Part shown: positions 32,128-48,346 of the stretch, piece by piece
Layout of the letters: every line of letters begins with the position of its first letter
Position numbering within the stretch: the stretch's first letter is position 1
IMG/VR virus record: IMGVR_UViG_3300046804_004946
Span: 55,840 to 119,839 of that record
Strand: one strand, 5' to 3'
Origin: a virus
DNA: 64,000 nt
The notes under the pieces: generated by a model
What the model saw: the letters and a program-made list of their open reading frames with translations, nothing else
Databases searched by the model: none
Told to the model about the DNA's origin: nothing
Program-made: the position numbers and the translations under genes

Positions 32128-32154
32128 AACTAGTAGTATTCAACTTAAAATCCT

Positions 32155-32679: not shown

Positions 32680-32764
32680 AACACTTTTGATTTCTACGCT
32701 GATTTATGCTATACTTATTGGGTCTTGGATTTATTGGGGTCTTACACATGCTTATCCACGATGA
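32672..32764 (+). CDS. Single-span micro-protein (30 aa)
   Basis: ATG 32672 overlaps the previous stop. MTKTLLISTLIYAILIGSWI and a short Trp-Gly-Leu-Thr-His end; almost all membrane span. Confidence 0.45.
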   Translation: MTKTLLISTLIYAILIGSWIYWGLTHAYPR

Positions 32765-32877
32765 TTTTTCACATAGTAGAAACACTTGCAAATAGTCCAA
32801 TTTGGTTAGGACTTTGTGGATTTGGTATAATTGTAGTTCCTATTATGGGAATTGCATATATACATAATAGAAAATAA
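32761..32877 (+). CDS. Single-span micro-protein (38 aa)
   Basis: ATGA overlap at 32761. PIWLGLCGFGIIVVPIMGIA forms one span, then YIHNRK. Continues the cassette of tiny membrane proteins. Confidence 0.45.
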   Translation: MIFHIVETLANSPIWLGLCGFGIIVVPIMGIAYIHNRK

Positions 32878-32890
32878 GTTTAAATAAAAC

Positions 32891-33415
32891 ATGGCAAATG
32901 TAACTTTTGAAATCACTTCAGTAAGTGGTGCTGAAATATTAGAAGGTGGACAGGGAATGAGTGGTGGAGTTTTTTTAGGATGGACGGGAACATTACTTAA
33001 TATTGATCCTGATCTTCCAGCAATTTCTGCTCGCCCTGCTGATATAGATGTTGTTGTTTCTGGTCAAACTTATACATTTAGTCCTGATTCCACAAATGGA
33101 GTTAAAAATTGGCCAGCAGGAGAAACTTGGTATGATATTGCTTTAGATGATAATCCTTATTATAATTATATAACATATAAGAGTCAAAATAGTTCTAATC
33201 AATATCCAACTTCTGGAAAAAGTTTTGATATTTGGTCTGGAGGACTTTGGAAAGAAATTAATTTTTCTGGACAAAGTTGGAGAGATATACATGTTCAAGA
33301 TCCTTTTAAACTAAGTACATCAAAATATACTTTAGTTTATGATTATACTTCTGGTAGTCCAACTGCCCATTGTTGGGTTAAAGGGGGGCAAATTAATTTC
33401 ACTCTTGTGGAATGA
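32891..33415 (+). CDS. Beta-rich hypothetical protein (174 aa)
   Basis: MANVTFEITSVSGAEILEGG, a GGVFLGWTGTLLNIDPDLPA segment and several WxD/YxxY-type strands; no signal peptide. It resembles small carbohydrate-binding or virion decoration folds, without a recognised family. Confidence 0.55.
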   Translation: MANVTFEITSVSGAEILEGGQGMSGGVFLGWTGTLLNIDPDLPAISARPADIDVVVSGQTYTFSPDSTNGVKNWPAGETWYDIALDDNPYYNYITYKSQNSSNQYPTSGKSFDIWSGGLWKEINFSGQSWRDIHVQDPFKLSTSKYTLVYDYTSGSPTAHCWVKGGQINFTLVE

Positions 33416-33420
33416 TTAAA

Positions 33421-33494
33421 CGGGATGTAGCTCAGTTTGGTAGAGCACTCGCTTTGGGAGCGAGGGGCCGTAGGTTCAAATCCTATCATCCCGA
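33421..33494 (+). tRNA. tRNA-Pro (TGG)
   Basis: Acceptor CGGGATG/CATCCCG, anticodon arm CTCGC-TTTGGGA-GCGAG with TGG, T-arm TAGG-TTCAAAT-CCTA. Confidence 0.93.
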
Positions 33495-33519
33495 CTGTCC
33501 AGTTTCTTAATTGGACCAC

Positions 33520-33548
33520 TTGACTAAAACGTTTTTAACTTTTATAAT
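33520..33548 (+). promoter_or_regulatory. Sigma70-like promoter
   Basis: TTGACT 33520-33525, 17 bases, TATAAT 33543-33548, before the 72-residue gene. A GTCCA/TGGAC inverted repeat lies just upstream. Confidence 0.75.
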
Positions 33549-33571
33549 ACTAGGGTAAACAATTCAAAACA

Positions 33572-33790
33572 ATGTCTCTGATTCAAAAATTCAAGAAAGA
33601 TGTAAACACTCTTCGCCTTGCTGCTAATGGCGAAATCTACCTTGATGTAAAAAGTCCAAAACTTTATAAGAAAGTTCGTCGTTTTTATGAAAATGAAGGC
33701 GTAGTATTTTCGGGAGATCCCTTGGATGATTATGAGATGCTCATGGAATACTTGTATCAAGATCTTGAATCTATTGAAGTAGCATCTTGA
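33572..33790 (+). CDS. Conserved hypothetical protein (72 aa)
   Basis: MSLIQKFKKDVNTLRLAANG, a basic strand region (VKSPKLYKKVRRFYENEG), then an acidic end (DPLDDYEMLMEYLYQDLE). Stands alone behind a strong promoter, which suggests an early host-directed function. Unrecognised. Confidence 0.65.
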   Translation: MSLIQKFKKDVNTLRLAANGEIYLDVKSPKLYKKVRRFYENEGVVFSGDPLDDYEMLMEYLYQDLESIEVAS

Positions 33791-33791
33791 T

Positions 33792-34463
33792 ATGATTGAT
33801 AATAAGGTTATTTTTAATTCCCAAACTTCAAGTACTGATTTATGTAAACTTGGTGCTATCTTTGAAGCAGATAAATCTCCATATAATCCAAGAAAGTGGC
33901 AACATGCTTACACTCCCTTTTATGATTTAATTTTTTCTCCAATTAGATATAAACCAATAGTTTTTGGTGAAATAGGAATTTTTAAAAATACTTCCATGCA
34001 AATGTGGAGAAAATATTTTCCAAATGCTATTCTTTACGGGTGGGACCACTCTGAAGAATTTTTACAGTATGCTAAAAATCAACAATTAGAAAACGTTCAT
34101 TATGATTATATGAACGTTAAGGAAGAAACATCAATTAACGAATCTTTTCAAAAAACTAATGTTAAATTTGATGTTATTATTGATGATTCTAGTCATGAAT
34201 TTTGGGATCAAATTAAAATAATTAGAAATGCTCATAAGTATTTAAATCCTGGAGGATATCTTATTATTGAAGATATTGATAGATTTAAAAACGAAGATGA
34301 TTATTCAAGTCAAATTTGGATGTATAATCATATGTTATATTATAATCACATCTCATTTGTAGAAACTGAACATAAAAATAAATTTACAGAACCTTTTGAT
34401 AATGACAAACTTTTAGTAATGGTTAGAAATAATACTCCACCATTTGATAATCCAAATTTATAA
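33792..34463 (+). CDS. SAM-dependent methyltransferase (CmcI-like), glycan locus
   Basis: 223 residues. VFGEIGIFKNTSMQMWRKYF near 57-76 is the SAM-binding GxG-type loop; VKFDVIIDDSSHEFWDQIKI near 128 and NPGGYLIIEDIDRF near 152 are the later strands. Pattern matches CmcI/rhamnosyl O-methyltransferase-type enzymes. Placed just before gmd, so it may methylate a sugar. Confidence 0.7.
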   Translation: MIDNKVIFNSQTSSTDLCKLGAIFEADKSPYNPRKWQHAYTPFYDLIFSPIRYKPIVFGEIGIFKNTSMQMWRKYFPNAILYGWDHSEEFLQYAKNQQLENVHYDYMNVKEETSINESFQKTNVKFDVIIDDSSHEFWDQIKIIRNAHKYLNPGGYLIIEDIDRFKNEDDYSSQIWMYNHMLYYNHISFVETEHKNKFTEPFDNDKLLVMVRNNTPPFDNPNL

Positions 34464-34470
34464 TGTTTAA

Positions 34471-34498
34471 AGATGAGTTGCATAAACTCATCTTTTTT
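34471..34498 (+). terminator. Terminator with -35 box in arm and loop
   Basis: AGATGAGTT (34471-34479), loop GCATA, AACTCATCT (34485-34493), T tract to 34498. Confidence 0.85.
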
Positions 34499-34506
34499 AG
34501 TATAAT
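34478..34506 (+). promoter_or_regulatory. Promoter for the glycan locus inside a terminator
   Basis: TTGCAT 34478-34483, 17 bases, TATAAT 34501-34506, before gmd. Confidence 0.65.
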
Positions 34507-34526
34507 GTTGAAAAGTACTTTGCTTT

Positions 34527-35528
34527 ATGAAAGTAGCATTAATAACAGGAATTACTGGACAAGACGGATCTTATCTTGCTGAACTTCTTTTAGAAAAAGG
34601 ATATGAAGTTCATGGTATTGTTCGTCGAGCATCTTTGATTAATACCTATCGGATTGATCATATTTACGATCAAATTAAACTTCACTACGGTGATCTTACT
34701 GATTCTACAAATCTTGTAAGAGTGATTCAGCAAGTTCAACCAGATGAAATATATAATCTTGGCGCTCAAAGTCATGTAAAAGTGTCTTTTGAGATACCTG
34801 AATATACGGGTATGGTTGATGGCCTTGGAACTCTTCGTATTCTTGAGGCAGTTCGTCTTCTGGGAATGGAGAAAAAAACAAGAATCTATCAGGCATCAAC
34901 GTCTGAAATGTTTGGTAAGGTTCAAGAAATTCCTCAATCAGAAACTACACCTTTTTATCCTCGTTCACCTTATGGAGTTGCAAAAGTTTATGGATACTGG
35001 ATCGTCAAAAACTACAGAGAGTCTTATGGACTACATGCAAGTTCTGGAATTCTTTTCAATCACGAATCCTCTCGCAGAGGAGAAACTTTTGTCACAAGAA
35101 AAATCACTCGCGGACTATCACGAATTTCAACTGGGCAACAGGACGTATTATATCTCGGAAATTTAAACGCCAAACGTGACTGGGGACACGCTAAAGACTT
35201 CGTAGAGGCAATGTGGTTGATGCTTCAGCAGGATGAACCTGATGATTATGTGATTGCCACAGGGGAGCAATATTCCGTTCGCGCATTTGTTGAAACTGCT
35301 GCTCCTTATTTTGGTATGAACATCATTTGGAGAGGTGAAGGATTGGATGAAGTTGGTATTGATAAACACACCAAAAGAGAGGTTATTAGGGTGAGCCCTA
35401 AATATTTTAGACCTGCTGAAGTAGAGACCTTATTAGGTGATGCCACTAAGGCAAAAGAAAAATTAGGTTGGCAACCTAAGATTTCATTTAATCAATTAGT
35501 TGAGGACATGTGCATTTATGGACAGTGA
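34527..35528 (+). CDS. gmd: GDP-mannose 4,6-dehydratase
   Basis: Converts GDP-D-mannose to GDP-4-keto-6-deoxy-D-mannose using bound [24 protein letters not shown] at 7-26 is the Rossmann loop, ASTSEMFG near 122 and [10 protein letters not shown] near 150 hold the Ser and Tyr/Lys catalytic set. [19 protein letters not shown] and the final [15 protein letters not shown] are family parts. 333 residues, slightly shorter than E. coli Gmd (373). Codons are host-like in places. Confidence 0.95.
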
Positions 35529-36441
35529 TTCTAGAGTATTAGTTTGTGGTGCCAATGGAATGGTTGGTTCTGCAATCGTGAGAAACCTTGAACAAAAAGG
35601 ATATACAAACATTATTAAAGCAACTCGTAAATATGTAGACTTTACGGATGAATTAATAACTGATGAGTATATTCAATCCGTAGAACCTGATTATGTTTTT
35701 GTTGCCGCTGCTAAGGTTGGCGGCATTATGGCAAACAATAACTATAAAGCAGATTTCCTGACTGAAAATCTTCGCATCCAAACCAACATTATTGATTCTT
35801 CTTATCGTTGGGGTGTAAAGAAACTTCTGTTCCTTGGTTCATCCTGCATCTATCCTAAGATGGCAACACAACCAATTACTGAAGATCAGTTGATGACTGG
35901 TCCTTTAGAACCAACTAATGAAGGATATGCTCTTGCAAAAATAGTTGGTGTGAAGATGTGTGAAGCATATCGTCAGCAATATGGATTTAATGCCATTTCT
36001 CTGATGCCTACAAATCTTTATGGTCCGAATGACAACTTTGATCTGGAGTCATCCCATGTGCTTCCTGCGATGATTAGGAAGTTTCATGATGCTGTTCCTG
36101 GAGAAAGTGTCACTCTTTGGGGTGATGGTTCTGCTATGAGAGAGTTTCTACACGTTGATGATCTTGCAGAGGCGTGTTATGTTTGTATGCAGAAATATGA
36201 TGAAGCAGGACATATTAATATTGGAACTGGTGAAGATGTAACGATTAAAGAACTTGCCAAAACAATTGTTAATGTTGTTAAGTTTATGGGAAATATTAAA
36301 TGGGATAAAACAAAACCAAATGGAACTCCTCGTAAAGTTTTGAATGTGGATAAGATCAAGGCACTTGGATGGGAACCAAAGATTGGTCTTCGTGATGGTA
36401 TTGAAACAACTTACAAATGGTATAAAGAAAATGCAATTTAA
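35518..36441 (+). CDS. fcl: GDP-fucose synthase or ColC-like reductase/epimerase
   Basis: ATG 35518, overlapping the gmd stop. [20 protein letters not shown] near 12-31 is the NADP loop; GSSCIYP near 108 and [12 protein letters not shown] near 141 hold the Ser and YxxxK catalytic residues. WcaG/Fcl epimerises and reduces GDP-4-keto-6-deoxymannose to GDP-L-fucose; ColC does the same chemistry on the 3-deoxy sugar for GDP-L-colitose, and the two are similar. 307 residues. Which product forms depends on the ColD-like gene next door. Confidence 0.9.
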
Positions 36442-37594
36442 ATGGCCTTTGATGAAAAATAATATCACTTTTAGTGATAGATTTAATCTTGCTAAATTTG
36501 TTTTAACTTCTGATCGTTTTACTAATGGTAAAATGGTTAAAAAGTTTGAAAGTGAATGGAGTAAATGGTTAGGTTCAAAATACTCTTTGTATGTTTCTTC
36601 TGGAAGTACTGCTAATTATTTACTTCTTTCTGCAGTAAAAGAACTGTATAATTTAAAAGATGGTGATAAGGTTTTAGTTCCTTCTTGTACGTGGGTAACT
36701 AATATTGGTCCAGTTATTCAATTGGGATTTACTCCCATCTTTTGCGATATTAATATAAACAATTTTAGTTTTTGTGAAGAAGATCTTCAATATATTGCAG
36801 AAAAACATCCCGATATTAAATTGATATTTGTTACTCATCTGATTGGATTTTCTGCTAATACTGAAAGATATCGTAGTCTTTTTCCAAATGCTTTAATTTT
36901 GGATGATATTTGCGAATCTCATGGATGCAAATCTCCAGATGGATCTAAAAGAGGATCTGACAGTTTAGGTGCAACTTTTAGTTTTTACTTTGGGCATCAT
37001 ATCTCAACAGTTGAAGGTGGAATGGTATCTACAAATAATTATGAACTGTATGACTTGATGAAGATGAAAAGAAGTCATGGTTTAGCAAGGGAATCTACCA
37101 GATATAAAGAGTATGTTGAAAAATATCCAGATATTTCTGATCAATTTCTTTTTGTGACAGATGGATATAATTTTAGGAATCATGAACTTGGTGCTGTTTT
37201 AGGATTATCTCAACTTAAAAGATTAGATAATTATATTGAAATAAGAAATAAAAATTATTTAAATTTTATAAATCTTGTAAAAAATTATTCAGATAAATTT
37301 ATTATTCCAAAATATTATCCAACGTGTAGTAATTTTTGTTTTCCTCTAATTTGTAAGACTAAAGATATTGCAGATAGACTTAAAAAATTGTTTGCTGAAA
37401 ATGGTGTAGAGCATAGACCTATAATTAGTGGAAATTTATTAAAACAACCATTCTTGGAAGGATATAAAATAATATCAAATAAAGATCAACTTAATGTTGA
37501 TTTAATTCATGAGAATGGAATTTATCTCGGAAATAATCATTTTATTGGTGATAAAGAAATTAATTTGCTTAAAAATATTTTAGAAAAATTATGA
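36431..37594 (+). CDS. ColD-like PLP 3-dehydratase (DegT family)
   Basis: 387 residues from ATG 36431. DegT/DnrJ/EryC1 aminotransferase fold: VSSGSTANYLLLSAV near 57-71, LDDICESHGCKSPDGSKRG near 157, and FSFYFGHHISTVEGGMVSTN near 182-201. Aminotransferases of this family have Lys where this sequence has His (GHHISTVEGG). GDP-4-keto-6-deoxy-D-mannose 3-dehydratase (ColD) is known for just this His replacement, so the predicted step is removal of the 3-hydroxyl for colitose synthesis. Other 3-dehydratases remain possible. Confidence 0.75.
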   Translation: MQFKWPLMKNNITFSDRFNLAKFVLTSDRFTNGKMVKKFESEWSKWLGSKYSLYVSSGSTANYLLLSAVKELYNLKDGDKVLVPSCTWVTNIGPVIQLGFTPIFCDININNFSFCEEDLQYIAEKHPDIKLIFVTHLIGFSANTERYRSLFPNALILDDICESHGCKSPDGSKRGSDSLGATFSFYFGHHISTVEGGMVSTNNYELYDLMKMKRSHGLARESTRYKEYVEKYPDISDQFLFVTDGYNFRNHELGAVLGLSQLKRLDNYIEIRNKNYLNFINLVKNYSDKFIIPKYYPTCSNFCFPLICKTKDIADRLKKLFAENGVEHRPIISGNLLKQPFLEGYKIISNKDQLNVDLIHENGIYLGNNHFIGDKEINLLKNILEKL

Positions 37595-38379
37595 CTTTTT
37601 CTTTTAATCAGTTAGGTAATAATGGGCATTTAGGAAATCAAATGTTTCAATATGCCTTCATTAAAGCAGTTGCAAAAAAGTATAATACAACTTTTTGCAT
37701 ACCTCCAAAAGAAATTTTTGGTAAGTATTATTATCAAAGACTCTTTAGTAATATTGATGATTGTTTTGATATTAAATGTGATAGAGAACTAAAACAATAT
37801 TCTTCTATTCATGAAAAATTTTTTCATTATGATAGTGATTTAGTTGAAAATATTAGTGGTAATTGCAATTTTGTTGGGTATTTTCAATCAGAAAAATATT
37901 TTAAAAGTATAGAAGACGAATTACGTTCTGTTGATTTTGTTTTTAAAAATAATATTCAAGAAGATTGTCAAGAAATAGTTGAAGAATATACGGGATCAAT
38001 AGCACTTCATATACGACGAAATGATTATGTAACAAATCCAAGTCATCCTTTACAAAATAATCAATATTATAGTGATGCTCTTGAACAGTTTCCTCAAGAT
38101 TTACCAGTTCTTGTTTTTTCGGATGATATTGAATGGTGTAAAAAACAAGAACTGTTTTCTGAAGATAGATTTTTAATTTCAGAAACTGAAAATCCTTACT
38201 TTGATTTGTATATTATGAGTCAGTGTGCTTATCATATTATTTGTAATAGCACTTTTAGTTGGTGGGGAGCATGGTTGGCGAATAGTAAAAATGTGATTGC
38301 TCCTAAAAATTGGTTTTCTGGGGATTGTATTAATCACAATACTAAAGATTTGTATTTGCCTCACTGGAAAATTTTATGA
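37591..38379 (+). CDS. GT11 alpha-1,2-fucosyl/colitosyltransferase
   Basis: 262 residues, ATGA overlap with the previous gene. GHLGNQMFQYAFIKAVAKKY near 10-30, SIALHIRRNDYV near 137-148 (HxRRxDY) and CNSTFSWWGAWLA near 222-234 are the three GT11 motifs. GT11 enzymes move L-fucose or colitose onto galactose in alpha-1,2 linkage (the H-antigen reaction). Confidence 0.88.
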   Translation: MTFSFNQLGNNGHLGNQMFQYAFIKAVAKKYNTTFCIPPKEIFGKYYYQRLFSNIDDCFDIKCDRELKQYSSIHEKFFHYDSDLVENISGNCNFVGYFQSEKYFKSIEDELRSVDFVFKNNIQEDCQEIVEEYTGSIALHIRRNDYVTNPSHPLQNNQYYSDALEQFPQDLPVLVFSDDIEWCKKQELFSEDRFLISETENPYFDLYIMSQCAYHIICNSTFSWWGAWLANSKNVIAPKNWFSGDCINHNTKDLYLPHWKIL

Positions 38380-39659
38380 AAAATATAAATCAATATAATT
38401 GTGTTTATTATTGTTTTTATGGTGATTTTAGATATAAAGAATTGTTAGAATTGTCTGTTAATTCTTTAAATAAATTTATTAGTAAAGAAAATATTTTTGT
38501 TTTTAGTGAGTATGATATTCCAGAATTGCAAATTTATTGTAATGTAATTAAAACAGAGTTTCCACAAACTCACGCTAAGCGTATGGCATATCGCTTAATT
38601 TTGGGTAAAGAACTATTGAAAAATTATGATAGAGTTCTTCATTTAGATGTAGACACTCTTGTTCTTGATAATATTGATGACATTTTTATATCTTTTGAGG
38701 ATGGAAAATTATCATTCGCAACAGAAGATTTAGAAAATCCGCATAAAATTACTGGAAGTTTTTGGGCAGGACCTTTATTAAATGAAGATGAACTAGTAAA
38801 ATATTCTAATGTGAATAGTATATGTTGTGGTGTTTTTGGATTTAATAAAAGCGCATATAAAATTTTAGAAGATATTTATAAGTTTATTGTTGAGTGTGAA
38901 GACTCTGGATTTTATGGATCTCATGTTGATCAACATGGGTTTGTAACTTATGTGCTACGAAATAATTTATATAATTATAATCTTCAACAACATGTTTCTC
39001 ATTTTCCAAGCTCTATCTTAGATAAAACTAAGTTTAAAATTTATCATTTTGCTGGTGGTGTAGTATCGGATAATAAGTATAATTATATGAAAAAATTTTT
39101 AATTCAAACTATAGATAATAGAAATAATCTTTTGGACTTTCTTCCAAAAAATTTAAAAATAGCAGAACTTGGTATTTTTAAAGGTGATTTTTCTAAAATT
39201 ATTTTAGAAAAATTATTACCCTCTGAATTATTTCTTGTTGATATATTTCCAGAAAATATGTGTTCTGGTGACAAAGATGGAAATAATATTGTTTTTCTTA
39301 ATCTTAGTGAAATGTATGATCAAATTTTGAAAGAATTTAAAGATTTTGATAACGTAAAAATAGTTAGATCATATACTTTAGATTTTCTAAATTCTCTAGA
39401 AGATGAATATTTAGATGCAGTTTATATTGATGCCGACCATACTTATGAAGCAGTAAAAAAAGATTTAGAATTATCTTTTAGAAAAGTTAAAACTGGTGGG
39501 ATAATTATGGGACACGACTATAGCGATATTATGTTTCCTGACGTTGTAAAAGCTGTAGATGAATTTTGTAATAATATGGGATTGCAAATAAGTTATTTGA
39601 CAAATGATGGGTGCCCAACATATTTAATATATAAAACATTAAATGATAAAACTTTATGA
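38376..39659 (+). CDS. GT8-like glycosyltransferase fused to methyltransferase
   Basis: 427 residues. The N-terminal ~245 residues are GT8-like: RVLHLDVDTLVLDNIDDIF near 87-105 (DxD) and IYHFAGGVVS near 225. From ~260, IAELGIFKGDFSKIILEKLL, YLDAVYIDADHTYEAVKKDL and VKTGGIIMGHDYSD form a class I methyltransferase (Methyltransf_24 type). A single enzyme that both adds and methylates a sugar would explain the fusion. AT-rich, phage-like. Confidence 0.75.
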   Translation: MKNINQYNCVYYCFYGDFRYKELLELSVNSLNKFISKENIFVFSEYDIPELQIYCNVIKTEFPQTHAKRMAYRLILGKELLKNYDRVLHLDVDTLVLDNIDDIFISFEDGKLSFATEDLENPHKITGSFWAGPLLNEDELVKYSNVNSICCGVFGFNKSAYKILEDIYKFIVECEDSGFYGSHVDQHGFVTYVLRNNLYNYNLQQHVSHFPSSILDKTKFKIYHFAGGVVSDNKYNYMKKFLIQTIDNRNNLLDFLPKNLKIAELGIFKGDFSKIILEKLLPSELFLVDIFPENMCSGDKDGNNIVFLNLSEMYDQILKEFKDFDNVKIVRSYTLDFLNSLEDEYLDAVYIDADHTYEAVKKDLELSFRKVKTGGIIMGHDYSDIMFPDVVKAVDEFCNNMGLQISYLTNDGCPTYLIYKTLNDKTL

Positions 39660-39754
39660 ATTTGTATGTTTATTTAATCAAATAGAATTACCCCTCAAAA
39701 ATGCTGTATAGATAATATTGAACATAACGTAATATTAGATAATTTGATAAAAAT

Positions 39755-40450
39755 ATGAAAATCTGTATCCTGTGTATTGCTACAAATAAGTACATTCGGT
39801 TTGTTGAAAGACTCCTTGATAATATTGAAGAAAACTTTCTTAATGGACATGAGATTGAGTGTTTACTGTTTACTGACCATGAAGTAGAAACATCTGATAA
39901 CGTAAGAGTTTGTCAGATTGATCACGAACCTTGGCCAATGCCTACCCTGAAAAGGTACAACTACTTCATAAAAGAGAAGGAGTTTATCTCCCAGTTTGAT
40001 TATTGTTTCTACTTCGACGTGGATATGGGTTTGGTAGATAAGGTCGGTGATGAGGTTCTAAGCGATCTAGTTGCCACTCAGCATCCCTACCAGTCCTTCT
40101 ATCCAAAGGAACAGAGGACTTACGATAGAAACCCACAGTCGCTCGCATACGTGCCTGTGGGTCAGGAAGGGGAGAACTATTATGCTGGTGGGTTCAATGG
40201 TGGTTCTACCAAACGGTTTCTTGAGATGTCAGAAGTGATTGCTGAAAAAGTAAAAAAAGATCTTGAAAATGAAGTGATTGCTCTTTGGCATGATGAATCT
40301 CATATGAATCGTTATTTGATTGACAATCCCCCAACATTAAGTTTAACACCTTCATATTGTTTTGCTGAAGAGCAACTTGACAATCTAAATTATCCATTTC
40401 ATGCTAAAATTATTGCATTAAAGAAAAATCATCAAGAACTTAGAAATTAA
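39755..40450 (+). CDS. GT6 (ABO-type) glycosyltransferase 1
   Basis: 231 residues. EPWPMPTLKRYNYF near 52, YFDVDMGLVDKVGDEVLSDL near 89 (DxD), ATQHPYQSFYPKEQRTYDRN near 109, YYAGGFNGGSTKRFLEM near 141 and WHDESHMNRYLIDNPPTLSL near 177 are the GT6 motifs shared with vertebrate ABO transferases. Transfers Gal or GalNAc in alpha-1,3 linkage. The first ~470 bases are richer in G+C and use different codons from the AT-rich last third, a sign of transfer or recombination. Upstream 95 bases hold no gene. Confidence 0.88.
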   Translation: MKICILCIATNKYIRFVERLLDNIEENFLNGHEIECLLFTDHEVETSDNVRVCQIDHEPWPMPTLKRYNYFIKEKEFISQFDYCFYFDVDMGLVDKVGDEVLSDLVATQHPYQSFYPKEQRTYDRNPQSLAYVPVGQEGENYYAGGFNGGSTKRFLEMSEVIAEKVKKDLENEVIALWHDESHMNRYLIDNPPTLSLTPSYCFAEEQLDNLNYPFHAKIIALKKNHQELRN

Positions 40451-40452
40451 TA

Positions 40453-41184
40453 ATGAAAAATATTGCTATTATTTTTATTGGAACTGGAAAGTATGCAGAT
40501 TTCTTTCCAAAATATTATGAAAATTGTGAAAAATATTTTTTAACAAATTCTGAAAAAACATATTTTTGTTTTACCGATGCTGATTTTGGAGGAGAAATTC
40601 CTAATAATATTAAAATAATTGAAACCCAACTTGAGAAATGGCCATTACCAACTTTACATAGATTTAAAACTATTTTAAAAGAAAAAAATAATTTACTTAA
40701 TTACGATTATTTGATTTATCTAGATGCTGATATGTTAGTAAATCAAAAAATTTTGGAGGAAGAAATTTTAACAGAAAAAGATTTCATAGGAGTTTATCAC
40801 CCAGGATTCTATAAAAAGTCTCAAGGAATTCCTTATGAAAAAAGAAGAATTTCTCAAGCATATGTTGAAGAAGATACTGGTAGGTATTGGCAAGGATCTC
40901 TATGGGGTGGAAGAGTTCCTTATGTGTTTGAAATGATTCAAAAACTTCATCAACAAATTCAAATAGATTTGGAAAAAAATATAATTGCAGAATGGCATGA
41001 TGAAAGTCATATTAATAAGTTTTTCTTGGAAAATAGTGAAAGGGTTTATACTCTTGGACCAGAATATTCTTTTCCAGAAGTTTATGATATTGATCCGAAT
41101 AAAGATCTAAATTATCCTAATATTGATCCAACCCAAAGAAAAATAATTCATTTATTAAAAAATCATTCTGAAATTAGAAAATAA
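40453..41184 (+). CDS. GT6-like glycosyltransferase 2
   Basis: 243 residues, two bases after GT6 copy 1. EKWPLPTLHRFKTI near 58, DYLIYLDADMLVNQ near 93 (DAD), RRISQAYVEEDTGRYWQGSL near 136 and EWHDESHINKFFLENSERVY near 180 match GT6 motifs, with lower similarity to copy 1. AT-rich throughout, unlike copy 1. Likely adds a second alpha-linked sugar or has a different donor. Confidence 0.83.
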   Translation: MKNIAIIFIGTGKYADFFPKYYENCEKYFLTNSEKTYFCFTDADFGGEIPNNIKIIETQLEKWPLPTLHRFKTILKEKNNLLNYDYLIYLDADMLVNQKILEEEILTEKDFIGVYHPGFYKKSQGIPYEKRRISQAYVEEDTGRYWQGSLWGGRVPYVFEMIQKLHQQIQIDLEKNIIAEWHDESHINKFFLENSERVYTLGPEYSFPEVYDIDPNKDLNYPNIDPTQRKIIHLLKNHSEIRK

Positions 41185-41185
41185 T

Positions 41186-41824
41186 ATGAAACTTAATTTA
41201 TTGGAAATTCCAGTTTACTATATCAATATGGAAAAAGATATTGATAAAAATAAAAAAATAAAAAAAATAATATCTGATTGTGGATTTACAAATTCTACTA
41301 GAGTTGAGGGGTTGGAGCATAAAAATCCCATGTCTGGATGTGCAGCATCCCACTACACGATATTAAGTTCTTTTGAACCACCTTATATAATTTTGGAAGA
41401 TGATTGTGACATTAAAAATTTTCATCCAATTATAGAAGTTCCTGATGATTCTGATATAATTTATCTTGGAATATCTTCTTGGGGAAGAATGAATTCGCAT
41501 TCTGGACCGTGTGTGAAATATGATATTTTAGATAATGGGTTATTGAAAATATATAATATGCTTAGTACACATGCTATGCTATTTCTTACAGAAGAATATT
41601 GTTCTATATGTAAAAATATAGCAAAATATTTTTATCAAATAGGAGATCATCTTGATATCGGATTTGCTGAAATTCAAAAATATTATAATGCTTATGCGTT
41701 TGATGATCCTATGTTTTATCAAACAAGTTCAAATGGAACTGATATGAAATTAAGTTCTTATCCTAGTGTTGATTTTTTTAACTTAAATAGAAATTTTTGG
41801 AAACCTTTGGAGATTAAAAAATGA
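41186..41824 (+). CDS. GT25-like glycosyltransferase
   Basis: 212 residues. IPVYYINMEKDIDKNKKI near 8, SGCAASHYTILSSFEPPYII near 50 and LEDDCDIKNF near 70 are GT25 (LPS/collagen galactosyltransferase) motifs. The C-terminal half is reduced compared with LgtB-type enzymes. Ends in an ATG overlap with the epimerase. Confidence 0.7.
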   Translation: MKLNLLEIPVYYINMEKDIDKNKKIKKIISDCGFTNSTRVEGLEHKNPMSGCAASHYTILSSFEPPYIILEDDCDIKNFHPIIEVPDDSDIIYLGISSWGRMNSHSGPCVKYDILDNGLLKIYNMLSTHAMLFLTEEYCSICKNIAKYFYQIGDHLDIGFAEIQKYYNAYAFDDPMFYQTSSNGTDMKLSSYPSVDFFNLNRNFWKPLEIKK

Positions 41825-42717
41825 AGAGTTTAGTAACTGGTGGTGCTGGATTTATCGGATCAAATCTTGTAGATCGTCTTATTGATTTGGGGCACGAAGT
41901 AATTGTAATTGATAATGAATATTCTGATGTTCATGAACACTTTTATTGGAATGACAGGGCACAAAATTACAAGTATGATATTCGTGACTATGAAAATACA
42001 CGACCTCTTTACGATGGTGTAGATTATGTTTTTCATCTTGCTGCGGAAGCACGTATTCAACCTGCTATTTTAAATCCAATTGAAGCAGTTAGTATCAACT
42101 CTGTAGGAACTTGTACTGTTCTTCAATGTGCTAGAGAAGCGGGAGTGAAAAGAGTAATGTATTCTTCTACTTCTTCTGGATATGGAATGAATGAACCACC
42201 TAATATAGAAACTCAACCCGACGATTGTTTAAATCCATATTCGGTTTCAAAAGTAAATGGTGAAAAATTATGTAAAATGTATACGAAACTCTATGGTCTT
42301 CAAACTATATGCTTTAGGTATTTTAATGTTTATGGTGAAAGACAACCACTTCGTGGTCAATATGCTCCCGTAATTGGTATTTTCTTACGTCAACGTGCAG
42401 CAGGTGAAGAATTGACTATTGTTGGTGATGGAAATCAAAGAAGAGATTTTACTTATGTTGGTGATGTTGTGAATGCAAATATCCTTGCTGCAACAACCAA
42501 TGTTGATTCAGAGGCATTTGGGCAAGTTTATAATGTTGGAACTGGCAATAATTATTCCATTAATCAAATTGCTAGGATGATTGGACATCCTTCAATAAAT
42601 ATTTCTCCTCGTCCTGGAGAAGCAAGAGTAAGTCTTGCCAATAATCAAAAACTTCGCAAAACTTTTGGTTGGGAACCAACTGTAAAACTTGAAGAATGGA
42701 TTAATTCTCAACTCTAA
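41821..42717 (+). CDS. NAD sugar epimerase, GalE/WbpP-like
   Basis: 298 residues. TGGAGFIGSNLVDRLIDLGH at 6-25 is the NAD loop, FHLAAEARIQPAI near 71, SSTSSGYG near 112 and YSVSKVNGEKLC near 138 form the SDR catalytic set. Interconverts UDP-Glc/Gal or the N-acetyl forms. This would supply UDP-Gal(NAc) for the GT6 enzymes and UDP-Gal for the mutase downstream. Confidence 0.85.
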   Translation: MKSLVTGGAGFIGSNLVDRLIDLGHEVIVIDNEYSDVHEHFYWNDRAQNYKYDIRDYENTRPLYDGVDYVFHLAAEARIQPAILNPIEAVSINSVGTCTVLQCAREAGVKRVMYSSTSSGYGMNEPPNIETQPDDCLNPYSVSKVNGEKLCKMYTKLYGLQTICFRYFNVYGERQPLRGQYAPVIGIFLRQRAAGEELTIVGDGNQRRDFTYVGDVVNANILAATTNVDSEAFGQVYNVGTGNNYSINQIARMIGHPSINISPRPGEARVSLANNQKLRKTFGWEPTVKLEEWINSQL

Positions 42718-42729
42718 TATTTTAATAAC

Positions 42730-44169
42730 ATGAAAATAAAAATTTTTTCTTTCGTTTTTAATAGACCAGATATTTTACAACATCAAATAAACTCTATTAA
42801 AAAGTTTTTAATTGGTGATTGTGAAATTAATGTAGTTTATGATACTAGAGATAATGAATATTATGAGCAGTTTAAAAATATATGTCAAAATAATGATGTA
42901 AATTTTTATTGCCATGTATCTGAACCAGGTCAAACACCAAGTTTTTATAATGGACAGGTAATTAGTTGGATTTATGAAAATCAGATCTTAAAAGATGATG
43001 ATGATTATATGGTTATTTTTTTAGATCATGATATGTTTTTAATTAGTGATTTTAATCCATATCTTGAAGTTGGTGAATATGATGTATTTGGATTATTGCA
43101 AACCCGTAAAAATATTCAATATGTTTGGCCTGGACTTTGTGGATTTAAAAAATCTTCTGTAAAAAATATTGAATTTGATTTTTATCCAAAAATTGTAGAT
43201 GGACAATCTTTAGACACAGGTGGTGGGACATATTCTTTATTAAGTAATCAAAAAATTAAATTTTTTGATAGTGGAGTTGAATATCCAGATGAATACTGTG
43301 GGTTAAATTTAAAAGATAAATCTTTAACCAATGGATATAATTATGAACTTCATTTTAAAGGTAAATTTTTACATTTTAGAAATGCTTGTAGTTGGCATAA
43401 TGAATATCAAGTAAATGATATTGAAAAAACAAACCTTTTATTTAAAATTTTATCTGATGTTATAGAAGATAATGATAAAAAATATTTTGAAATAGTTGTT
43501 GCCAGATATAATGAAAATATTGAATGGACAAAAAATTATTTAAATTATATCACTCTTTATAATAAAGGGGATGATATAATTGATAATGCAATTCCTTTAA
43601 AAAATATTGGTAGAGAACCTCATACATACCTGCATCATATTATTAATAATTATGATAATCTAGCAAATTATACTATATTTCTTCAGGGAAATCCTTTTGA
43701 TCACATTTACCCTCATCAGGATCAACAAGAAAGACTTTTTAATCTTTTAAATGATATCATTTTTAATGATAAACAAATTGGAGATTTTTATAAAATACTT
43801 GCATGTGTTATAACTGGTGATTATGAATATATAAGAGAACCGTATCATATGGAGTGTCCAAATATAGTGGATGCTTATGTTAAAGTGTTTGATCGTTTAC
43901 CTGCAGAAGGGGAAACGTATACTTATGCATCTGGTGCTCAATTTGTCGTATCAAAAAAAGCAATACATTCAAGACCAATAGAGTTTTATAAGAATATACT
44001 TAAAATATTTGAATACGATCCAAGTGTTGATGGATATGATGAAGTAAATGAAAAACTACTTCAAGTTAATGAAAGATATTTTGATGGTAAAAATAGATAT
44101 AATCCAAATAATCCACAAATGGCATATCATGTTGAAAGATTTTGGAGATTAATATTTAATGAAATATGA
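42730..44169 (+). CDS. Glycosyltransferase-like domain fused to DUF3431
   Basis: 479 residues. N-terminal ~230 residues are GT-A-like (KIKIFSFVFNRPDILQHQIN, MVIFLDHDMFLISDFNPYL with DHD). From ~250 DUF3431 begins: FEIVVARYNENIEWTKNYLN, NIGREPHTYLHHIINNYDNL and YTIFLQGNPFDHIYPHQ. DUF3431 proteins cluster with glycan genes; this one may be a bifunctional transferase. AT-rich. Confidence 0.7.
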   Translation: MKIKIFSFVFNRPDILQHQINSIKKFLIGDCEINVVYDTRDNEYYEQFKNICQNNDVNFYCHVSEPGQTPSFYNGQVISWIYENQILKDDDDYMVIFLDHDMFLISDFNPYLEVGEYDVFGLLQTRKNIQYVWPGLCGFKKSSVKNIEFDFYPKIVDGQSLDTGGGTYSLLSNQKIKFFDSGVEYPDEYCGLNLKDKSLTNGYNYELHFKGKFLHFRNACSWHNEYQVNDIEKTNLLFKILSDVIEDNDKKYFEIVVARYNENIEWTKNYLNYITLYNKGDDIIDNAIPLKNIGREPHTYLHHIINNYDNLANYTIFLQGNPFDHIYPHQDQQERLFNLLNDIIFNDKQIGDFYKILACVITGDYEYIREPYHMECPNIVDAYVKVFDRLPAEGETYTYASGAQFVVSKKAIHSRPIEFYKNILKIFEYDPSVDGYDEVNEKLLQVNERYFDGKNRYNPNNPQMAYHVERFWRLIFNEI

Positions 44170-45244
44170 TTATTTAATAATTGGTTGTGGTTTGTTCGGA
44201 TCTACATTTGCAAGACTTGCCGTAGATAATGGCAAGTCTTGTTTAATTATAGATAAGAGAAATCATATTGCTGGAAATTGCTATACTAAAAATATTGAAG
44301 GGATAAATGTTCATGAATATGGTCCACATATATTTCATACTAGTAACAAACTAGTTTGGAATTTTGTAAATAGATTTGCTGAATTTAACAATTATATACA
44401 TTCTCCTAAAGCATGGCATAAGAATAAATTATATTCTTTGCCATTTAATATGAATACTTTTTATGAATTGTGGAATACTAAAGATCCTCAACAGGTAAAA
44501 ACAATAATAGAATCTCAAAAATTTAAGGGAACTGTTGGAAATCTTGAAGAACAGGCGCTGGCTCTTGTTGGTGAGGATATATACAACACTTTAATTAAAG
44601 GATATACTGAAAAACATTGGGGAAGATCTGCAAAGGATCTTCCCTCCTTTATAATTAAAAGACTTCCTTTAAGATTTACTTTTGATAATAATTATTTCAA
44701 TGATAGATATCAAGGTATTCCAGTAGGTGGATATACTAAAATGTTTGAAAACATGCTTGAGGGAATACCAATTCAACTAGGTGTTGATTATTTTTCTGAC
44801 AAAAATTATTACAATTCCTTGGCAAAAACTATAGTATATACTGGATGTATAGATGAATTTTTTGATTATGAGTATGGAAATTTACAGTATCGGTCATTAA
44901 AATTTGATACTGAAATTATTAATTCAGATAATTATCAAGCAGTTTCTCAAATGAATTATACTTGTGATACTAAAAAATGGACTAGAATTGTAGAGCATAA
45001 GCACTTTGAAAACGTAAACACAAAAAATACTATCATTACTAAAGAATATTCTATAGAATATAGGATTGGATTAACACCATATTATCCAATAAACGATTTT
45101 TATAACCAAAATATTTTTAATAAGTATAAAGAAAAATCTAAATTATTGACAAATACTATATTTGGGGGTAGACTATCTGAATATAAGTATATGGATATGC
45201 ATGTTGTGATTGAATCTGCATTTAATAAATTTAAGAAACAATGA
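44159..45244 (+). CDS. glf: UDP-galactopyranose mutase
   Basis: Flavoenzyme that converts UDP-galactopyranose to the furanose form. DYLIIGCGLFGSTFARLAVD at 4-23 is the FAD loop; NCYTKNIEGINVHEYGPHIF near 40, KGYTEKHWGRSAKDLPSFII near 147 and GGYTKMFENMLEG near 188 are mutase motifs. 361 residues, typical length. Start overlaps the previous stop. Confidence 0.93.
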   Translation: MKYDYLIIGCGLFGSTFARLAVDNGKSCLIIDKRNHIAGNCYTKNIEGINVHEYGPHIFHTSNKLVWNFVNRFAEFNNYIHSPKAWHKNKLYSLPFNMNTFYELWNTKDPQQVKTIIESQKFKGTVGNLEEQALALVGEDIYNTLIKGYTEKHWGRSAKDLPSFIIKRLPLRFTFDNNYFNDRYQGIPVGGYTKMFENMLEGIPIQLGVDYFSDKNYYNSLAKTIVYTGCIDEFFDYEYGNLQYRSLKFDTEIINSDNYQAVSQMNYTCDTKKWTRIVEHKHFENVNTKNTIITKEYSIEYRIGLTPYYPINDFYNQNIFNKYKEKSKLLTNTIFGGRLSEYKYMDMHVVIESAFNKFKKQ

Positions 45245-45951
45245 GTATAAGTAGAAGAATTGTAGTCACAAATCATTCTAGTCATGATTTAGAATGGTTA
45301 AAAGATCTTGAAGATCATGGAATAACCTCAGAACATATTTACATTTATGATAGAAGTGGAAATGGAGTAGATCAATACAAACATTTGGGAAAAGTATTTG
45401 AGTCACCAAATGTTGGATCTAACATATATGATTATGGTAGATATATTGTCGAAAATTATGATGATCTTGCTGATATTAATATTTTAATTAAAGGTAATAT
45501 AACTTGGAGAACTTATACTAATCGGGAAAGATTAATTTATGCTTTGAATGCAAATTGGTTTGTCCCAATAGATAACGATCCAATAGGAACTGGAGAAAAA
45601 AATTATTTTGAACCATGGGGAGAAGGATTTTATGTAAATGATTCTTCTCACTTGGAAAAAACTGAAAGATTTATGGGAGATAATAAAGATTTAAAAGTTT
45701 ATCCCAGAATAAAAAATATAAAAGATTTTTTGGAAGATTTATTCATTATAAAACAAATTCCAGAATATTTGTCATTCTGCCCAGGTGCAAATTTTGTTGT
45801 CCCCAAACAGAATATTTTAAAGTACACTAAAAAGTTTTATCAAAAAATGATAGATTATACTGATTATGATCCAAATCCTATGGAATCTCATTTCTTTGAA
45901 AGAGTTTTACCACTTGCTTGGCAAGGTTGTTTATTAGAAAATTTAGATTGA
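45241..45951 (+). CDS. Stand-alone DUF3431 protein
   Basis: 236 residues. RRIVVTNHSSHDLEWLKDL near 5, VGSNIYDYGRYIVENYDDLA near 59, INILIKGNITWRTY near 81 and SFCPGANFVVPKQNILKYTK near 177 follow the same order as the DUF3431 half of the 42730 gene. Probably an active glycan-modifying enzyme. Starts at an ATGA overlap. Confidence 0.65.
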   Translation: MSISRRIVVTNHSSHDLEWLKDLEDHGITSEHIYIYDRSGNGVDQYKHLGKVFESPNVGSNIYDYGRYIVENYDDLADINILIKGNITWRTYTNRERLIYALNANWFVPIDNDPIGTGEKNYFEPWGEGFYVNDSSHLEKTERFMGDNKDLKVYPRIKNIKDFLEDLFIIKQIPEYLSFCPGANFVVPKQNILKYTKKFYQKMIDYTDYDPNPMESHFFERVLPLAWQGCLLENLD

Positions 45952-45952
45952 T

Positions 45953-46744
45953 ATGGATAAAAATAAATCTGCATATAAACTTAAGGGTCTTCCACACATC
46001 TATTATATTAATTTAGATGATAAACAAGAACGTGCCAAATACATGGAGGAACAATTTAAATATTGGCAAATAGAAAATTATACTCGTATATCTGCTTATG
46101 ATGGTAGAGATGATGATCTTGGACATTTGCTTAAAGGAAGATATCCAGATATGATGAATTCTGGAGAAGTAGGGTGCGTTACTTCACATTTAAAAGCATT
46201 AAAGCATTTTTTAGAATTTTCTAATGAACAAGTTGCTTTAATTATGGAAGATGATTGTGATTTAGATACTGTAAAACATTGGCCATTTAATTGGAAAGAC
46301 TTTTATTGTAAGATTCCTTATGATTATGATGTAATACAATTAGCGATTATTAATCCATCTCAAATACATATGAGACTTCATCGTAGATTTGTTAATGATT
46401 TTTCTACGGCATGTTATTTAATAACTCGTCATCATGCACAAAAACTTATCAATCTTCATTGTAGGGAAGATAAGTATAAACTTGATAACGGAGTAAAACC
46501 AAGAGCAGTAGCAGATGATTTAATTTACAATTCTGGAAATACTTTTGCAATGCCTTTGTTTATGTATAAAATTGAGTTGGGATCCGATATTCATGATGAC
46601 CATATAGATAGTTTTCATAGAAGTAGTTATGAGGGTCTGTGGCAATTTTGGAGAAATGAAGCAGTTGATATTTCAGATTGGAACTTTATATTTGATTATG
46701 ATGCTTATGCTAACAGAATACCAATTGTTAAATCGTCTGAGTAA
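45953..46744 (+). CDS. GT25 family glycosyltransferase
   Basis: 263 residues. IYYINLDDKQERAKYMEEQF near 16, SGEVGCVTSHLKALKHFLEF near 70 and ALIMEDDCDLDTVKHWP near 96 are the GT25 motifs (YYINLD, EVGCxxSH, EDD). Last gene of the glycan locus. Confidence 0.82.
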   Translation: MDKNKSAYKLKGLPHIYYINLDDKQERAKYMEEQFKYWQIENYTRISAYDGRDDDLGHLLKGRYPDMMNSGEVGCVTSHLKALKHFLEFSNEQVALIMEDDCDLDTVKHWPFNWKDFYCKIPYDYDVIQLAIINPSQIHMRLHRRFVNDFSTACYLITRHHAQKLINLHCREDKYKLDNGVKPRAVADDLIYNSGNTFAMPLFMYKIELGSDIHDDHIDSFHRSSYEGLWQFWRNEAVDISDWNFIFDYDAYANRIPIVKSSE

Positions 46745-46775
46745 ATATACTTATTGTGTTAGGATATCCGAACAA

Positions 46776-46800
46776 AGAGGGTCTTGACCCCTCTTTATTT
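46776..46800 (+). terminator. Terminator of the glycan locus
   Basis: AGAGGGTC (46776-46783), loop TT, GACCCCTCT (46786-46794, one bulged base) and TTATTTTT. Confidence 0.75.
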
Positions 46801-46812
46801 TTGCTATATAAT
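46784..46812 (+). promoter_or_regulatory. hli promoter overlapping the terminator
   Basis: TTGACC 46784-46789 sits in the hairpin; 17 bases on, TATAAT 46807-46812. It drives hli. Confidence 0.75.
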
Positions 46813-46839
46813 ATTGTAACAGTTCTTTACAAAACTACA

Positions 46840-47043
46840 ATGACTGTAACAACTAATGAGTACGGACAACAAAACATGTGGGCCAAAGAGCCTGAAATGG
46901 TTTATCAAGAATACAAACGTAAAGGTCTTCTGACCCCCATGCAAACTACGGAGATGTATAATGGGCGCTGGGCAATGGTCGGGATTTTTGCTGGTGCTAT
47001 TTCTTATTTTATCACTGGCAAACTCTTCTTCGGGATCTTCTGA
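46840..47043 (+). CDS. hli: High-light-inducible protein (Hli)
   Basis: 67 residues from ATG 46840. TEMYNGRWAMVGIFAGAISY holds the chlorophyll-binding ExxNGRxAM motif in one membrane helix, followed by FITGKLFFGIF. Hli proteins bind pigment and protect photosystems from excess light. N-terminal 35 residues are soluble. Confidence 0.93.
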   Translation: MTVTTNEYGQQNMWAKEPEMVYQEYKRKGLLTPMQTTEMYNGRWAMVGIFAGAISYFITGKLFFGIF

Positions 47044-47051
47044 TTAGGGGC

Positions 47052-47080
47052 TTGACAATGACTTCAACTATCTTTACAAT
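47052..47080 (+). promoter_or_regulatory. Promoter for ferredoxin
   Basis: TTGACA 47052-47057, 17 bases, TACAAT 47075-47080, inside the start of the 28-residue ORF. Confidence 0.55.
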
Positions 47081-47144
47081 TACTAGTGTTGCTTTCTTTG
47101 TTTTACTGGCAGCATCTGTAGAAAAAATTTGTGAGACTTATTAA
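47058..47144 (+). CDS. Single-span micro-protein (28 aa)
   Basis: ATG 47058 to TAA 47142-47144, the last base being the A of the ferredoxin [23 protein letters not shown] then VEKICETY: one span, like small photosystem or cytochrome b6f subunits in size. No family recognised. Confidence 0.45.
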
Positions 47145-47434
47145 TGGCATTTAACATTACCCTCCAATCTCCCGATGGAACTGAAACTACCATTCAGTGT
47201 CCTGAAGATCAATATATTATGGACGCTGCTGAAGAGGCAGGCGTAGATCTTCCTTCCAGTTGCCGTGCTGGTGCTTGTTCCGCTTGTGCTGGTAAACTTA
47301 TCAGTGGTACAGTAGATAATGAGGATCAATCTTTTCTTGATGATGAACAAGTTGCAGATGGTTGGGTGCTAACCTGTGTAGCATACCCCACTAGCGATTG
47401 TGTGATCCTTACTGAACAGGAAGAGAATCTGTGA
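47144..47434 (+). CDS. petF: 2Fe-2S ferredoxin PetF
   Basis: 96 residues, plant-type. Cys 40, 45, 48 and 78 ([15 protein letters not shown] ... LTCVAYP) bind the cluster. Carries electrons from photosystem I; in phage-infected cells it may feed bilin reductases or NrdAB. Starts overlapping the micro-protein stop. Confidence 0.95.
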
Positions 47435-47643
47435 GTGCAAACATGCTTGGGCAATTTAATCTTGCCCTTCAAGAGTTAATTAATACTGGTGCCTGGGACA
47501 AAAATGCAGAACTAGAAGTTAAAATTGCAGGCACTCTTAAAAGTGATAAGTTTATTGTGATTAAACCTATCAAACAAAAACTGGTTTGTAATCCAAACCC
47601 AGACCTTAAACAAAAACACTCTTATCAAGGAGAAAACAAATGA
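47431..47643 (+). CDS. Small hypothetical protein (70 aa)
   Basis: GTGA overlap with petF (GTG 47431; ATG 47443 is an alternative). [20 protein letters not shown] then [20 protein letters not shown]; a helix then strands. Function unknown. Confidence 0.55.
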
Positions 47644-47759
47644 AATTTGGATTTACCCCCGAAGCAGAAATTCTTAATGCTCGTTTTGCGATGATTGGAT
47701 TTGTTGCTGGAGTTGCTTCTTATCTTACCACTGGTCAAATTATTCCTGGTATTTTTTAA
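47640..47759 (+). CDS. hli: Very short Hli (39 aa)
   Basis: ATG 47640 overlaps the previous stop. EAEILNARFAMIGFVAGVAS has the chlorophyll-binding ExxNxRxAMxGF motif and one span; the end is YLTTGQIIPGIF. It lacks nearly all of the N-terminal region of the first Hli. Probably pairs with another Hli or a photosystem core protein. Confidence 0.85.
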   Translation: MKFGFTPEAEILNARFAMIGFVAGVASYLTTGQIIPGIF

Positions 47760-47802
47760 ATAATATGATATGATATAGAGAACATATTATATCATAATTA
47801 GA

Positions 47803-48324: not shown

Positions 48325-48346
48325 TAAAAAAATTATGGAGGTTAAA

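Follow-up and report, generated by a model that had tools for sequence, protein, structure and literature searches.

What glycan would a phage build with its own enzymes, and would that glycan be placed on its own virion or on the surface of its host? The question was raised by a cluster of glycan genes at positions 33792-46744 of a 64,000-nucleotide stretch of virus DNA (IMG/VR record IMGVR_UViG_3300046804_004946, positions 55,840 to 119,839), hereafter the window. The window is part of virus record G000 (119,839 bases); a second IMG/VR record (L008, or G301; 177,187 bases) was 100% identical across the overlap and reached past the right end of the window. The closest phages, together with hli, petF and the tRNAs, put the window's phage with the Kyanoviridae. 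The original prediction, made from the letters alone, had read the cluster as the parts of an ABO/H-antigen-like pathway, and had proposed that a host-like glycan is made on the virion or that the host lipopolysaccharide (LPS) is rewritten during infection. Our analysis supported the presence of ABO-like pathway parts in the island, as judged from sequence. The reading that we favour, to which we give slightly less than an even chance, is that of a working locus for glycan assembly in the cytoplasm, whose product would glycosylate a virion fibre.

The glycan island comprised fourteen plus-strand open reading frames (ORFs), which mostly overlapped or had a few bases between them. To their left lay a tRNA-Pro gene (33421-33495), and straight after the terminal GT25 gene came hli and petF (46840-47434, plus strand; the hli start at 46840 is a reading of the translation), the usual right-hand neighbours of this slot. 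The ORF list agreed with the predicted coordinates, gene order and strand throughout. A chance grouping was ruled out by the fourteen intact adjoining ORFs, thirteen of them with a Pfam match and one, at 41186, with a PHROG match only.

The sugar-nucleotide genes pointed to a GDP-colitose pathway. Gmd (GDP-mannose 4,6-dehydratase; 34527-35528) scored 563 bits against TIGR01472 (cut-off, 415), and was followed by an Fcl/ColC-type epimerase-reductase (35518-36441), whose ORF was called from a TTG at 35500, the ATG at 35518 being likelier on a reading of the translation. This enzyme retained the SSCIYP and YxxxK motifs and matched GDP-fucose synthases in the PDB, and no ColC chain was among the 60 PDB rows listed for it. 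The predicted family stood, but, with an NF047922 score of 458 bits below the GDPFucSyn equivalog cut-off of 500, Fcl and ColC were not separable by score. The next gene (36431-37594; ORF from 36344, with the ATG at 36431 likelier from the translation) encoded a ColD-type pyridoxal-phosphate (PLP) 3-dehydratase. Its best PDB chains were those of ColD/WbdK (2gms), at 184.5 bits versus 107.9 bits for CDP-sugar 3-dehydrase, and it carried an FGHH motif, with His-His at the position of the PLP Lys of aminotransferases; the ColD-like label was thus upheld. A Lys-to-His swap at this place is a feature of ColD. An intact-looking ColD makes colitose a likelier product than fucose alone, although GDP-fucose might be formed by the Fcl-like enzyme as well. 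That the 6-deoxy sugar is L-fucose, or fucose together with colitose, and not colitose alone, seems rather unlikely to us: the Fcl enzyme does score as a GDP-fucose synthase, if below the cut-off, and the same two motifs occur in phages without an island ColD (P-SSM2 and S-SCSM1), but ColD stands between Fcl and GT11, and 16 of the 17 loci matched, among them the window and its twin, kept the His-His pair, the exception being a 23% non-orthologue. For galactofuranose (Galf), the island held a UDP-galactopyranose mutase, Glf (44159-45244; TIGR00031, 404.2 bits versus 303.75; PDB 1i8t, 471 bits); Pfam identified no island protein as a Galf transferase, a role for which the DUF3431 proteins are only a guess. 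The nearest structures of the UDP-sugar 4-epimerase-like protein (41821-42717) were T. maritima GalE (4zrm, 181 bits) and then WbpP (150 bits). It exceeded no NCBIfam equivalog cut-off among those listed, and the GalE-like label was therefore borne out as to kinship but not as an equivalog.

GT11 enzymes add a 6-deoxy sugar alpha-1,2 to galactose, and GT6 enzymes then cap the product, as in the ABO antigens. The island GT11, a putative alpha-1,2-fucosyl/colitosyltransferase (37591-38379), scored 108.8 bits with PF01531 (cut-off, 23.9) and kept HIRRND; a PDB search with it gave no match at E up to 1. Both GT6 proteins were of the DXD type. GT6a (39755-40450; PF03414, 141.3 bits versus 25) matched BoGT6a and the human ABO transferases in the PDB and kept DXD and WHDES, and its donor site, YYAGG, was the same as that of BoGT6a. 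GT6b (40453-41184; PF03414, 114 bits versus 25) likewise matched BoGT6a and retained DAD and WHDES, with a donor site different from that of GT6a. The island therefore resembles the H/ABO transferases of vertebrates and bacteria both in its families and in these motifs. Passages of PMC3961637 describe BoGT6a of B. ovatus as a GalNAc enzyme, and the donor-site match suggests UDP-GalNAc as the donor of GT6a. The same passages report NXN for most bacterial GT6, unlike the metal-type DXD of the window. The active-site check came out in favour of the original prediction for GT11 and GT6, and the labels of Gmd, GT11, both GT6, both DUF3431 proteins, the UDP-Gal mutase and the terminal GT25 all scored above curated cut-offs.

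The order of GT11 first and GT6 second predicts a one-way association of GT6 with GT11. The search covered 19 records, namely 12 cyanophages with an island (G301, P-SSM2, S-SCSM1, DSL-LC03, ACG-2014f, S-CAM7, S-CAM9, SynMITS9220M01, DSL-LC02, B23, S-8S55 and S-PRM1), five control T4-like cyanophages from the genome list of PMC3037559 (S-PM2, P-SSM4, syn9, P-HM2 and S-RSM4), and two huge uncultured phages. The island phages were chosen through GT6, ColD or Gmd matches, include several close relatives and are not a random sample; the controls were classed as island-less since GT11, GT6 and GT25 were all missing. All 12 records with GT6 also held GT11, and 12 of the 14 with GT11 held GT6 (S-SCSM1 and S-CAM7 were without it); neither family was found in the five controls. 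Moreover, the GT11 stop overlapped or abutted the GT6 start in S-CAM9, SynMITS9220M01, DSL-LC02, DSL-LC03, B23, S-8S55 and S-PRM1, and about 700 bases separated the two genes in AG-345-E15. The ABO/H-like reading was thus supported by the families, the active-site motifs and the co-occurrence of GT6 with GT11; sugar identities, linkages and acceptor are inferred.

Are these working genes? Passages of PMC3037559 name 'stuffer DNA' as an option for such islands, and gene content does vary between phages, as would be expected of functionless packaging filler. We consider this explanation very improbable. In seven ACG-2014f isolates (of the 45 records listed), the ratio of nonsynonymous to synonymous polymorphism (pN/pS), pooled for petF and 12 island genes, was 0.09, and all 13 frames were intact in every isolate. 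Between IMG/VR relatives, the corresponding divergence ratio (dN/dS), taken for the five lowest-pN pairs per gene, with GT25 pairs not covered and the 'Epim' pair L016-L017 left out as probably a Gmd match, was mostly 0.2 or less; the exceptions were Fcl in L012-L020 (0.31) and the 41186 protein in L012 and the window (0.45). Catalytic motifs were also kept: HxRRxD of GT11 in 14 of 15 matched loci, the exception being cut by the record end, and DXD with WHDE of GT6 in 11 of 12, neither being seen in L014. Furthermore, the core and the slot were common across genera. These observations argue for selection on enzyme function in the relatives, the window's own sequence having no more than an identical twin, and suggest that the island consists of working genes.

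Whether the genes or their product are of the host's kind was examined in 300 genomes sampled from the cyanobacterial family centred on the genome behind L070 (titled Vulcanococcus), which we assumed to be the host family and which presumably includes marine Synechococcus and Prochlorococcus. GT6 was found in only three of these genomes, GT11 matches in 32 and DUF3431 in four. The 'host-like' glycan of the original prediction is thus doubtful, and a host origin of GT6 is unsupported. The three cyanobacterial GT6 matches were L101, L102 and L103, and both full-length ones had DXD, which again departs from the NXN reported for most bacteria. A host origin of the window's ColD was likewise unsupported, some DegT match being present in 281 of the 300 genomes with a best identity of 39%; His-His was also found in all 10 of the top cyanobacterial DegT matches. 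The nearest bacterial matches of Gmd, among the best 80 listed, were 64-72% identical and mostly proteobacterial, with two cyanobacterial ones at 69% and 68%.

In the pathway that we propose, Gmd, ColD and Fcl/ColC would convert GDP-mannose to GDP-colitose, possibly also to GDP-fucose, and the epimerase and Glf would supply UDP-Gal/GalNAc and UDP-Galf. A short oligosaccharide would be built by GT25 and the other transferases; GT11 would add the 6-deoxy sugar alpha-1,2 onto a galactose, and GT6a and GT6b would cap this H-type unit with GalNAc or Gal. The likeliest acceptor would be one of the phage's own virion proteins, foremost a giant collagen-like fibre with Thr-rich Gly-X-Y repeats, and the progeny would then bear a glycosylated fibre coat. 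Thr glycosylation of the BclA type is known. The gene of this candidate acceptor starts at 62300, runs to the window's end at 64000 (plus strand) and continues in G301; its frame of 3105 codons held 27 collagen stretches (PF01391, 943.6 bits), 37 runs of at least four Gly-X-Y repeats and a Peptidase_S74 domain near the C terminus, and was also seen as L143:5660-14974 (minus strand). A possible glycosyltransferase adjoined it (60761-61726, plus strand; its RXYLT1_C match, at 21.3 bits, fell short of the cut-off of 27). Beyond the fibre, G301 contained Ser/Thr-rich giant frames and a second glycosyltransferase locus (L142, L141) with a 1071-residue GT17-like/methyltransferase protein (weak GT1-type match), a 746-residue methyltransferase, a GT2 and a 1014-residue GT2/double-GT25 protein. 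In S-CAM7, the island leads directly into a collagen-like tail-fibre gene. A collagen domain was present in 8 of the 12 island-bearing cyanophages, none of the five controls and one of the two huge phages, and the GT25 PHROG in 12, none and none, respectively, a contrast partly built in through the choice of controls; the phages sampled are few and akin to one another. A simple hydropathy rule predicted no membrane segment in any of the 14 island proteins; apart from one giant frame and some frames lying antisense to the collagen gene, G000 and G301 had no frame with at least four such segments. PF13440, the single flippase family searched for (the family searches did not extend to Wzy either), was matched in neither record. 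Unless the phage borrows host carriers, assembly thus appears to be cytoplasmic. Since a collagen-like fibre and a second glycosyltransferase locus occur in the same phage without a flippase match, we lean to the virion.

The support for fibre glycosylation is nevertheless indirect, and several observations weigh against it. Four of the 12 island phages had no collagen match, and collagen can therefore not be the sole acceptor. The window's fibre was nearly Lys-free at the Y positions (5 of 697 triplets) and GT_PLOD was not found in G301, so that the collagen-lysine chemistry proposed below for relatives is inapplicable to it. The GT6-GT11 rule failed in the 300 cyanobacterial genomes, none of the three with GT6 having GT11, and four IMG/VR loci (L013, L016-L018) had Gmd, Fcl and ColD with no GT11 match in the stretch examined. 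Kinship among the compared phages also makes their counts non-independent. Lipid-linked machinery of the host might serve the island as well. Finally, directly before the island there was a sigma70-like site but no TATAAATA (late-promoter motif), an arrangement that could point to early expression and would suit remodelling of the host better. The corresponding alternative, that the island rewrites the host LPS or surface glycan in infection, for example to hide receptors from co-infecting phage or to keep progeny from re-adsorbing to debris, is a serious one, at perhaps one chance in three. The same promoter arrangement speaks for it, as do the gene families, which are those annotated as LPS biosynthesis, and the scarcity of GT6 in the host family, where a foreign cap could mask; the islands of ACG-2014f and S-CAM7, moreover, adjoin annotated tail-fibre genes. 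Yet the missing PF13440 match and the collagen-fibre links tell against it, polymerase, ligase and initiating transferase were absent from the island's family matches (host ones could serve), and the lytic cycle leaves little time for rewriting a host surface. Rewriting of the host is also the published reading of such genes in passages of PMC9602691. If our preferred reading of a glycosylated virion is true, phages would be added to the viruses that glycosylate themselves with elaborate sugars, beside the chloroviruses and mimivirus, with possible consequences for host range, for grazing and for how phages persist in the sea. The gene constraint, the occurrence of GT6 with GT11 and the collagen-fibre link make the choice between virion and host testable.

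A related arrangement was observed in other phages. In S-8S55 and S-CAM9, a collagen-like fibre was followed by two 2-oxoglutarate (2OG)-Fe(II) oxygenases and a GT25-GT_PLOD protein (loci L156:1412-9185 and L157:399-9258). PF25342 scored 164 and 160 bits in the two GT25-GT_PLOD proteins, and the oxygenases had Pfam matches in S-8S55 and 62-63% identity in S-CAM9. GT_PLOD was found in three of the 19 records (S-CAM9, S-8S55 and S-PRM1). An IMG/VR scan with the GT25-GT_PLOD protein gave 68 loci (L161-L228), with a collagen-like frame in 49 and in none of the 68 shuffles; no collagen frame was found in the stretch examined of the other 19, of which 13 were shorter than 8 kb. A 2OG oxygenase was matched in 27 of the 68 with the queries used. 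In all 36 distinct collagen frames near GT25-GT_PLOD, Lys occupied 16-67% of the Y positions. The control consisted of collagen frames picked out by a Gly-codon spacing pattern, 79 distinct ones among the 80 loci listed; 10 of the 77 without a nearby GT25-GT_PLOD reached 16% Lys at Y, and the other two stood at 24% (with a full-length GT25-GT_PLOD match) and 13% (with a weak partial one). The difference from the controls listed gave a Mann-Whitney p of about 2e-14, kinship not being corrected for. This arrangement looks like that expected for animal-like hydroxylation and glycosylation of collagen lysine, a modification known in viruses from mimivirus according to passages of PMC9546862. Because relatives pair GT25-GT_PLOD with Gly-X-Lys fibres, fibre glycosylation by phage enzymes of the GT25 type is plausible. 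A wider generalisation would be that large cyanophages glycan-coat their own collagen-like fibres, here a Thr/Gln-rich fibre of 3100 residues with A/B-like (GalNAc/Gal)-(colitose) caps, and in sister phages on hydroxylysine by means of 2OG oxygenase and GT25-GT_PLOD, as in animals; we regard this as doubtful at present. The titles and abstract openings listed, all of open-licence papers, mentioned neither colitose in a phage nor hydroxylysine glycosylation of phage fibres; one of the listings consisted mainly of cyanophage papers without colitose. Roseobacter phage CRP-6 also carries a GT25-GT_PLOD enzyme.

By its gene content, the island is a further member of the published cyanophage 'LPS' islands. 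Its own novelty is modest, and that implied by the original prediction did not hold up, the island type, the slot and most genes being already published or deposited. Passages of PMC3037559 describe such clusters near hli03 and tRNAs, with three gene clusters co-occurring in P-SSM2, S-SM2 and S-SSM7, here T4-GC 260 (GT11), 265 (epimerase) and 266 (GT25); the window's core proteins were 46%, 59% and 72% identical, respectively, to those of P-SSM2. Both hli and petF also stood to the right of the island in P-SSM2, S-SCSM1, ACG-2014f, DSL-LC02 and DSL-LC03, and hli in S-CAM9, S-CAM7 being an exception with a fibre gene in this place; tRNAs were annotated to the left in S-SCSM1, S-CAM9, SynMITS9220M01 and B23. 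By megablast, no record spanned most of the island, and only Gmd/Fcl matched, at 73-79% in 11 records. Protein relatives in phage records numbered 78 for ColD (best 56%; 54 named Synechococcus), 102 for GT11 and 71 for GT6.

The P-SSM2 island (PSSM2_257-271) shared with the window the slot upstream of hli/petF, Gmd, Fcl, GT11, GT6 (78% identical to GT6a), the epimerase and GT25. However, the stretch examined had a single GT6, ColD, Glf, DUF3431 and the GT8-methyltransferase protein were without a match there, and GT2 and GT1 genes were annotated instead. ACG-2014f and S-CAM7 had Gmd-Fcl-ColD-GT11 in the window's order and a terminal GT25, their ColD being 55-56% identical to that of the window; GT6 and the epimerase were shared by ACG-2014f, whereas S-CAM7 had no GT6. 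Unlike the window, neither had a Glf or DUF3431 match, and a sulfotransferase was annotated in ACG-2014f and an adenylylsulfate kinase in S-CAM7. In IMG/VR, ColD was matched at thirteen loci, the identical twin L008 included. Among the other twelve, five (L009-L012 and L019; L009 and L010 alike) had Gmd-Fcl-ColD-GT11, L014 and L020 had the four genes in another order, and L015 ended within ColD. The right block from GT6a through 41186 and the epimerase to GT25 and hli was complete in L012 and L020 and partial in L009-L011 and L019, L014 had epimerase-GT25-hli, and the middle of the island varied. The island also resembles the E. coli colitose pathway (ColD/WbdK) in its Gmd, ColD and Fcl/ColC set but, by Pfam matches, its 14 genes lack those for GDP-mannose supply. 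With mimivirus and the chloroviruses it shares virus-encoded sugar supply and transferases, and mimivirus further has proteins resembling collagen as well as enzymes that modify collagen (passages of PMC9546862 and PMC9614988); the window differs in belonging to a cyanobacterial phage whose acceptor is only proposed. A 642-kb uncultured phage (LR756502.1) carried Fcl, ColD, a GT2-GT6 fusion, a second DegT enzyme, DUF3431 and GT11 at L131:6612-20074, a cluster within 14 kb that appears to be a parallel outside the Kyanoviridae.

The labels of the remaining island genes fared unevenly. The first (33792-34463; PF13847, 45.6 bits) matched only general families of S-adenosylmethionine methyltransferases, and not the predicted CmcI; a 51% relative adjoins Gmd in L014. 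The protein at 38376-39659, predicted as a GT8-methyltransferase fusion, had the methyltransferase part (Methyltransf_24, 52 bits), but its possible GT8-like domain stayed below the cut-off (21.2 bits versus 24.3). For the 41186-41824 protein, the GT25 label was weak: no Pfam match was obtained, its best PHROG was phrog_24091 of unknown function (250 bits), GT25 phrog_2835 gave only 21.6 bits, and the EDD seen in 8 of 8 sequences (EDDC in 6 of 8) is shared with GT25. It is better described as a protein conserved in cyanophages that may be a distant transferase of the GT25-like kind. The predicted GT-DUF3431 protein (42730-44169) had DUF3431 at residues 255-427 (PF11913, 55 bits versus 25) behind an unclassified N-terminal domain with a DHD motif; as this domain was free-standing in the related phages L012 and L020, the ORF is a fusion. 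Predicted structures of the 41186 and 42730 proteins were poor, with a mean predicted local distance difference test score (pLDDT) of 55 and 52, respectively. The second DUF3431 protein (45241-45951; 48.2 bits versus 25) and GT25 (45953-46744; PF01755, 47.1 bits versus 24; phrog_2835, 421 bits) closed the island.

Upstream of the island, a candidate sigma70-like promoter (33520-33548, plus strand) matched 11 of 12 consensus positions; such matches, made to the consensus only, were scarcely above shuffles (120 versus 103.5). In the window, TATAAATA was not above chance (7 versus 7.7 expected), nor was the looser late-promoter motif MTAAATA (31 versus 50 expected). The promoter evidence for the timing of the island is therefore weak. 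One plus-strand terminator-like hairpin (34469-34495) separates the first methyltransferase gene from Gmd and another (46774-46796) follows the island; two strong ones lie inside the Glf gene (44210-44242 and 44619-44645). In 2-kb bins, G+C was 27-30% over 36001-46000 and 34.6% over the Gmd-Fcl part, with higher values than mid-island in the flanks (33-38% over 30001-34000 and 46001-52000); 60001-62000 had only 25.5%. A tryptophan-halogenase-family protein (114 bits) was encoded at 59617-60768, just upstream of the 60761-61726 candidate and the fibre. G301 also encoded a RubisCO large-chain family protein (L141:14154-15392, minus strand; PF00016, 148.7 bits), with 2cwx as its best PDB match (147 bits) and with KPKTG and GGVDFIKEDE present.

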